A stretch of DNA of 9,493 nt. Origin: Candidatus Desantisiibacteriota bacterium. GTDB taxonomy: Bacteria; JACRDZ01. The notes under the pieces were generated by a model that saw nothing but the letters and a program-made list of their open reading frames with translations, was not told where the DNA came from and did no database searches. This document shows, piece after piece, positions 2,194 through 9,493 of this stretch (positions are counted from its first letter, which is position 1; every line of letters begins with the position of its first letter). The stretch is taken from NCBI GenBank assembly GCA_016209155.1, contig JACQWU010000183.1:1-9493 (forward strand), written 5' to 3'. The translations under genes and the position numbers were made by a program.

Positions 2194-2837
2194 TTAATTT
2201 AATTTTGTTAAAATACATGGGCCATCTGTCGTAATAGCAACAGTATGTTCAAAGTGACATGAAAGACTGCCATCTTTTGTTACCACAAATTTGGAATCTG
2301 CGGGGGTTCATGCATTTTTGTTCCAATTCCATGTCCCACAAAATCTCTCACCGGAGAAAATCCAAACTTTTCCACATAACTTTGTATTGTATATGATATA
2401 TCAAAAAGCCTGTTTCCTTCTTTTGCCTGCTCAATACCTAACTCTAAAGATCTTTTTGTTACATCAATAAGTAATGAAGCTTCGCTGGAAATATCTCCGA
2501 CCGGGAAAGTTGCTGCTGCATCACCATAATAACCGTCTTTTAGAACTCCTACATCTATACTGATGATATCTCCGCTTTTAAGAATCCTGTTTTTACTTGG
2601 TATCCCATGAACAACTTCATTATTTATTGAAGTACAAATCCCATGATTATATCCCGGTACTTTTTTAAAAGCCGGAACTGCATTTTTTTTAATTATATAA
2701 TCTTCGGCAAAAGAATTTAATTCTGCCGTAGTTATACCCGGACGGATCAATTTCCCCAGCTCATTTAATAATACAGCTGTAATTTTTCCGCTTACGAGCA
2801 TATAGTCTATCTCTTTTTGAGATTTTATTGTTATCAT
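2194..2837 (-). pseudogene. map: Type I methionine aminopeptidase, broken by internal deletion and frameshift
   Basis: MetAP removes the initiator methionine from new proteins using two metal ions. The open frame 2280-2837 gives only 185 residues (family about 250). It has H77 (VVHGIP), metal ligands D95 (SIDVG), D106 (GDAAA) and H169 (GHGIG), then MHEPPQIPNLW and TAA at 2280-2282. The normal end follows at once in another frame (2286 down to TAA 2194-2196): VVTKDGSLSCHFEHTVAITT and then DGPCILTKLN, holding the last ligand glutamate in HFEHT. The middle part present in intact enzymes (FG...LKxGMVxAIEPM...DGWT, roughly 36 codons), with the ligand equivalent to E. coli E204, is absent. The loss is thus about 3n+1 bases. 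Its ATG overlaps the adk stop in ATGA. As read it cannot make an active enzyme; a local assembly error is the main alternative. Confidence 0.88.
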
Positions 2838-3481
2838 ATTTCATCAAGATAACCTGTAAGAGAGGTAAAAATACAATCCATATCTGCTTCCCCGTTAACT
2901 GTCTTGAGAATTTTTTTATTATTATAATAATCTTTAAGACTTTCCGTTTGTTCCTTATATACTTTTAATCTGTTAATAATTGTTTCCTCTTTATCATCCT
3001 GGCGCTGATAAAGCTCACCCTGACATACATCACATATACCGTCTTTTTTAGGAGGTTGAAAATCAACATGATACCCCCTGCCGCATTTCCTGCAAATTCT
3101 TCTGCCTGACAGTCTTTTTATCAGTATTTTATCATTTACTTCAAAACTTATTACAGCTTCAATTTTTTTCCGCTGTAATTCCAATATCTTATTAAGCTCT
3201 TCTGCCTGACTTAAAGTACGAGGGAAACCATCCAGTATGAATCCGTTTCCGCAATCTTTTTTTTCAATTCTCTCTTTTATAATATCTATCACAACATTAT
3301 CAGGCACTAAAAGTCCTGTATTCATATATTCCTGGGCTTTTAAACCTAAAGCTGTTTTATTCGATACTGCTTCTCTTAAAATATCTCCTGTCGAAACTTG
3401 AGGGATATTATAGCGTACACCGATTTTTTTTGCCTGCGTTCCTTTTCCGCTCCCTGGAGCTCCCAGTAATATAAGGTTCAT
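2834..3481 (-). CDS. adk: Adenylate kinase with zinc-binding LID
   Basis: Catalyses ATP + AMP = 2 ADP in the cytoplasm, balancing adenine nucleotides. The product has 215 residues. The P-loop GAPGSGKGT is at 7-15, the AMP-site segment STGDILREA at 30-38, and DGFPRT at 84-89. The LID carries cysteines 130, 133, 150 and 153 (CRKC...CDVC), the structural zinc site of long bacterial Adk proteins. The LID arginines of GRR (126-128) and the QRQDD segment (159-163) are in place. It starts 22 bp after secY at ATG 3479-3481, with AGGAG about 12 bases upstream, slightly long spacing. Its TGA overlaps the map ATG, so the two are probably translationally coupled. secY-adk-map is a common bacterial order. 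No defects seen. Confidence 0.97.
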   Translation of the reverse strand: MNLILLGAPGSGKGTQAKKIGVRYNIPQVSTGDILREAVSNKTALGLKAQEYMNTGLLVPDNVVIDIIKERIEKKDCGNGFILDGFPRTLSQAEELNKILELQRKKIEAVISFEVNDKILIKRLSGRRICRKCGRGYHVDFQPPKKDGICDVCQGELYQRQDDKEETIINRLKVYKEQTESLKDYYNNKKILKTVNGEADMDCIFTSLTGYLDEI

Positions 3482-9192: not shown

Positions 9193-9493
9193 TCAAACAA
9201 CTTCCGGAGCAAGCGAAATTATTTTTGTAAAATTCTTATCTCGTAATTCTCTGGCTATTGGTCCAAAAATCCGACTTCCGCGGGGTTCATTCTGATCATT
9301 AATAATAACTGCAGCATTATTATCAAATCTGATAAAAGAACCATCTTTGCGGCGTGATTCTTTAGTTATTCTTACTACAACAGCTTTTACCACTTCACTT
9401 TTTTTAACAGTACCTTCAGGATCTGCTTCCTTGACACTCGCTACAATTATGTCACCCAGTCTGGCGCATTGCTTATTGGCACTGCCCATTACT
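9193..9493 (-). CDS. rplN: 50S ribosomal protein L14, 5' end outside the window
   Basis: L14 lies at the subunit interface of the 50S subunit, in bridges to 16S rRNA. About 99 codons are visible, and the frame stays open through the right edge. Roughly 24 N-terminal residues of the usual 122 are missing. The ATG at 9487-9489 is internal: the sequence around it ([20 protein letters not shown]) aligns with the middle of L14, not its start. Conserved blocks are [40 protein letters not shown] and [20 protein letters not shown], ending LAPEVV and TGA (9193-9195). In the standard order rpsQ and rpmC would lie upstream. A 260-bp repeat-filled spacer separates it from rplX. Confidence 0.96.

Follow-up and report, generated by a model that had tools for sequence, protein, structure and literature searches.

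A map gene broken in a draft Desantisiibacteriota genome, very probably by an assembly dropout

Type I methionine aminopeptidase (MetAP), Map (TIGR00500, PF00557, peptidase family M24), is the closest described system to the gene analysed here. Some bacteria carry two map genes. The gene resembles Map in residues 1-183, which include three metal ligands and the catalytic histidine, in a C-terminal piece bearing the FEHT motif, and in its position between adk and infA. It differs in that the assembled copy lacks about 36 codons, including those of the AIEP glutamate, and its reading frame is broken.

A second point of comparison is provided by the dropouts and misjoins of draft metagenome-type assemblies, to which this draft is similar in having clean internal losses across conserved genes and scaffold gaps of the wrong size. 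The number of contigs and the completeness of the draft suggest that it is itself of metagenome origin. A review (PMC8021871) cautions that misassemblies may be introduced when metagenome assemblies undergo external scaffolding. The literature search found no paper directly on such an artefact or on loss of map.

The assembled map gene and its missing segment

The window, that is, the whole stretch of DNA that was analysed, comprises 9,493 nucleotides of one contig of Candidatus Desantisiibacteriota bacterium (JACQWU010000183.1, called C83 below) and contains on its minus strand a part of the S10/spc/alpha-type ribosomal operon, from rplN to rpsD. The map gene is located between adk (2834-3481) and infA (1914-2132). 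Its N-terminal frame, 2837-2280 on the minus strand, encodes 185 residues and scores 214 bits against TIGR00500, above the curated cut-off of 171.35, although the match covers positions 1-181 only of the 247 in the profile. The first-pass annotation had placed H77, D95, D106 and H169 in this frame and a stop codon at 2280-2282 after HEPPQIPN, and both statements were confirmed: all four residues are present, and HEPPQIPN is followed by LW and then the stop.

The C-terminal piece, which the same annotation took for the true C-terminus, follows immediately in a frame different from that of the N-terminal part. It reads VVTKDGSLSCHFEHTVAITTDGPCILTKLN and then a stop, and it matches TIGR00500 positions 210-246 (E 5e-7), in agreement with that assignment. 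The piece is 81% identical to a consensus C-terminus typed by hand and 67% identical to the orthologue of a genome from the same phylum. The two parts are adjacent and have kept their order, and the rest of the map sequence displays no additional decay. The assembled gene does not hold the five metal ligands (D, D, H, E and E) in a single open frame: D95, D106 and H169 are in the first frame, the AIEP glutamate is absent, and the FEHT glutamate lies in the other frame. As assembled, map is a broken copy.

The size of the loss was determined from the spacing between the PN of HExPxxPN and FEHT in 57 distinct homologues from related loci. This spacing is exactly 48 codons (144 nt) in 48 of the 57 and 46 codons in eight; the remaining one could not be used because of masked residues. 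In the window the spacing is 35 nt, so that 109 nt (3 x 36 + 1) are absent relative to the 48-codon form, or 103 nt relative to the shorter, 46-codon form. The earlier estimate of about 36 lost codons, a 3n+1 loss and a broken frame is thereby borne out, as is the placement of a metal-ligand glutamate, that of AIEP, within the missing segment; the homologues listed have AIEP, with AVEP or ALEP in a few. At the junction there is no N and no long repeat is visible, which counts against an assembly artefact.

Table 1. Features of the window and losses found in genes of the draft (window positions unless a contig is named)
Feature	Position	Strand	Description
map, N-terminal part	2283..2837	-	residues 1-183, plus LW read beyond the junction; stop codon 2280-2282; TIGR00500 match
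map, junction	2278..2290	-	minus-strand sequence about CCAAATTTGTGG; ~109 nt absent, among them the AIEP segment; two tblastn pieces meet
map, C-terminal part	2194..2283	-	VVTKDGSLSCHFEHT...KLN; other frame; stop codon 2194-2196
rplN	9193..9493	-	truncated by an 85-N run starting at contig (C83) position 9494, just past the window
map, tblastn comparison			loss of 109 nt, frame change
Mg-type P-type ATPase	C3 13839		loss of 140 nt, frame change
porA	C50 3626		loss of 140 nt, frame change
Unnamed gene	C53 7206		loss of 103 nt, frame change
PpiC/PrsA-like isomerase	C77 9852		loss of 113 nt, frame change
secA	C48 4758		loss of 39 nt, in frame; conserved VNDY motif removed
rpoB	C276 about 2768		loss of 32 nt, frame change, at the TPEEKLL segment; gene split
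topA	C292 about 4588		loss of 154 nt, frame change; gene split

The remaining complete genes of the window align with their orthologues over nearly their entire length. In the rpsK (uS11) frame, at 727-1197 on the minus strand, there are about 33 Lys/Glu-rich residues at the N-terminus that the relatives do not have, or the real start may be further downstream. The best rpsE match in one relative (G001, contig C98) is a frame of only 98 residues, and rpsE of that genome may contain a small frameshift of its own.

Comparable losses elsewhere in the draft

By tblastn, open reading frames from 729 kb of the draft were compared with two same-phylum relatives (about 890 kb together), which gave 135 comparable frames, a part of them antisense frames of the same gene. 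In five genes, including map, a clean internal loss with a frame change was found, the flanks being joined within a few bases (Table 1). In secA the loss is in frame. Four long essential genes (rpoB, topA, rpoC and ileS), chosen without knowledge of their state, were also tested against the whole assembly. Both rpoB and topA have lost an internal segment, and contig ends interrupt rpoC and apparently ileS. Apart from map, at least seven conserved genes of the draft carry the lesion.

Two further candidates were rejected as natural length variation. An apparent loss of 120 nt in secA was discarded because a shorter form of the gene matching this difference is known; an apparent 69-nt loss in gyrB falls within a variable loop that is flanked by smooth alignment. 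Close to the secA junction (C48 4690-4760), TGGGKT replaces TGEGKT and GTRP replaces ATLP at nearly invariant residues, and in each case the second base of the codon has become G. These odd residues would fit poor base quality at that place, although this is a suggestion only.

When the two relatives were compared with each other over 44.7 thousand aligned residues, no well-supported clean internal loss was found. This comparison yielded net frame changes of one base, small in-frame differences in length and one weak candidate for a 73-nt loss, based on a match of 19 residues. Six losses in 32.8 thousand residues of the draft thus stand against none in 44.7 thousand between the relatives (p about 0.006, or about 0.014 without map, the gene that prompted the test), the control samples being smaller than a whole genome and drawn from different genera. 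The number of events is modest, and the weight of the argument is in the identity of the affected genes. The pattern is that of an artefact, in that the same lesion occurs in other essential genes of this assembly and has no well-supported counterpart between the relatives.

The draft is scaffolded, and its gaps were compared as well. Runs of N number 20 (8-106 bases) in 721 kb of the draft, versus one in each relative sample. The 85-N run inside rplN (C83 9494-9578), beyond which the start of the gene resumes, would seem to stand for only about 20-24 absent bases, so that its stated length is wrong. In gyrB, a run of 19 N stands between two flanks whose sequences overlap. These two wrong sizes mean that the distances used in scaffolding are unreliable; at most other gaps the flanks have no homologues with which the size could be compared.

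Origin of the map lesion

These findings strongly indicate that the map deletion is an artefact, one of the recurrent dropouts of this draft, and on the sequence comparisons this reading is held with high confidence. A cell without intact rpoB, secA, topA and map together is not viable, and therefore the losses in these genes cannot all be real. A single technical cause for all of the losses is the simplest account. Two stretches flanking a poorly resolved spot would have been joined directly, and the approximately 109 nt between them dropped. Misjoining of contig ends at spots of presumably low coverage is favoured; the join could have been made by the assembler, the scaffolder or a gap-closing step, and might have been caused by a wrong estimate of the gap size or by a chance short overlap. 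It is very probable that map is intact at this locus in the organism itself. The assembled sequence was described correctly, yet what it shows is very probably no biological feature.

The first-pass annotation had left three options: that a second copy of map exists, that the population is mixed, or that about 100 bases were dropped in assembly. The last is strongly favoured by the recurrence of the lesion in essential genes, and a second copy is not found in the assembly. A rival reading is a real and recent deletion in a part or the whole of the population, tolerated owing to another MetAP encoded outside the assembled portion of the genome or to coexisting intact cells. At any single junction it is possible that the assembler picked up a real deletion present in a strain. 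The draft (3.08 Mb in 352 contigs, 2.3% contaminated) is 78.8% complete, so that a second map could be absent from it; bacteria with two map genes exist, and several relatives give more than one M24 match. The second type I MetAP that the annotation had proposed to look for was searched for across this assembly and none was found. The assembly contains two other M24 proteins, with frames of 386 and 400 residues, of which one scores 51 bits against TIGR00500 (cut-off 171) and the other has no match; judged by this profile, neither appears to be a type I enzyme. The missing map segment is absent from the rest of the assembly, and a search of plasmid records for a map match returned a single distant hit at 65%. 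The comparison with relatives, also proposed earlier, revealed intact map genes in the three other genomes compared from the phylum, with full-length frames of 258-267 residues. Since the same type of lesion occurs in rpoB, topA and secA of the draft, where it could not be real in living cells, a real deletion of map is considered quite unlikely.

Three further readings are highly improbable. The genome might be decaying, as in a degenerating symbiont, with map one pseudogene among many. Several genes of the draft are indeed broken, but the losses are clean and internal and affect rpoB, secA and topA, genes that are retained even when genomes are reduced; the window is otherwise intact, and at its assembled size this is not a reduced genome. 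Recoding by a translational frameshift or bypass could in principle fuse the two adjacent and correctly ordered map parts into a working enzyme, but it could not supply the 36 missing residues with the AIEP ligand glutamate, and it hardly merits consideration. There is likewise next to no likelihood that a free-living lineage has truly lost functional map and that its N-terminal methionine is processed by an enzyme not recognised here.

The probable assembly dropout also bears on how the draft can be used. That map lost codons and its frame within an essential operon is not to be read as a statement of biology. If it were true, the loss of map would challenge the indispensability of N-terminal methionine removal in bacteria. 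Six clean internal losses in 32.8 thousand aligned residues correspond to approximately one in every 16 kb of the coding sequence that could be compared, and for this reason lost genes or pseudogenes claimed on the basis of this draft are untrustworthy.
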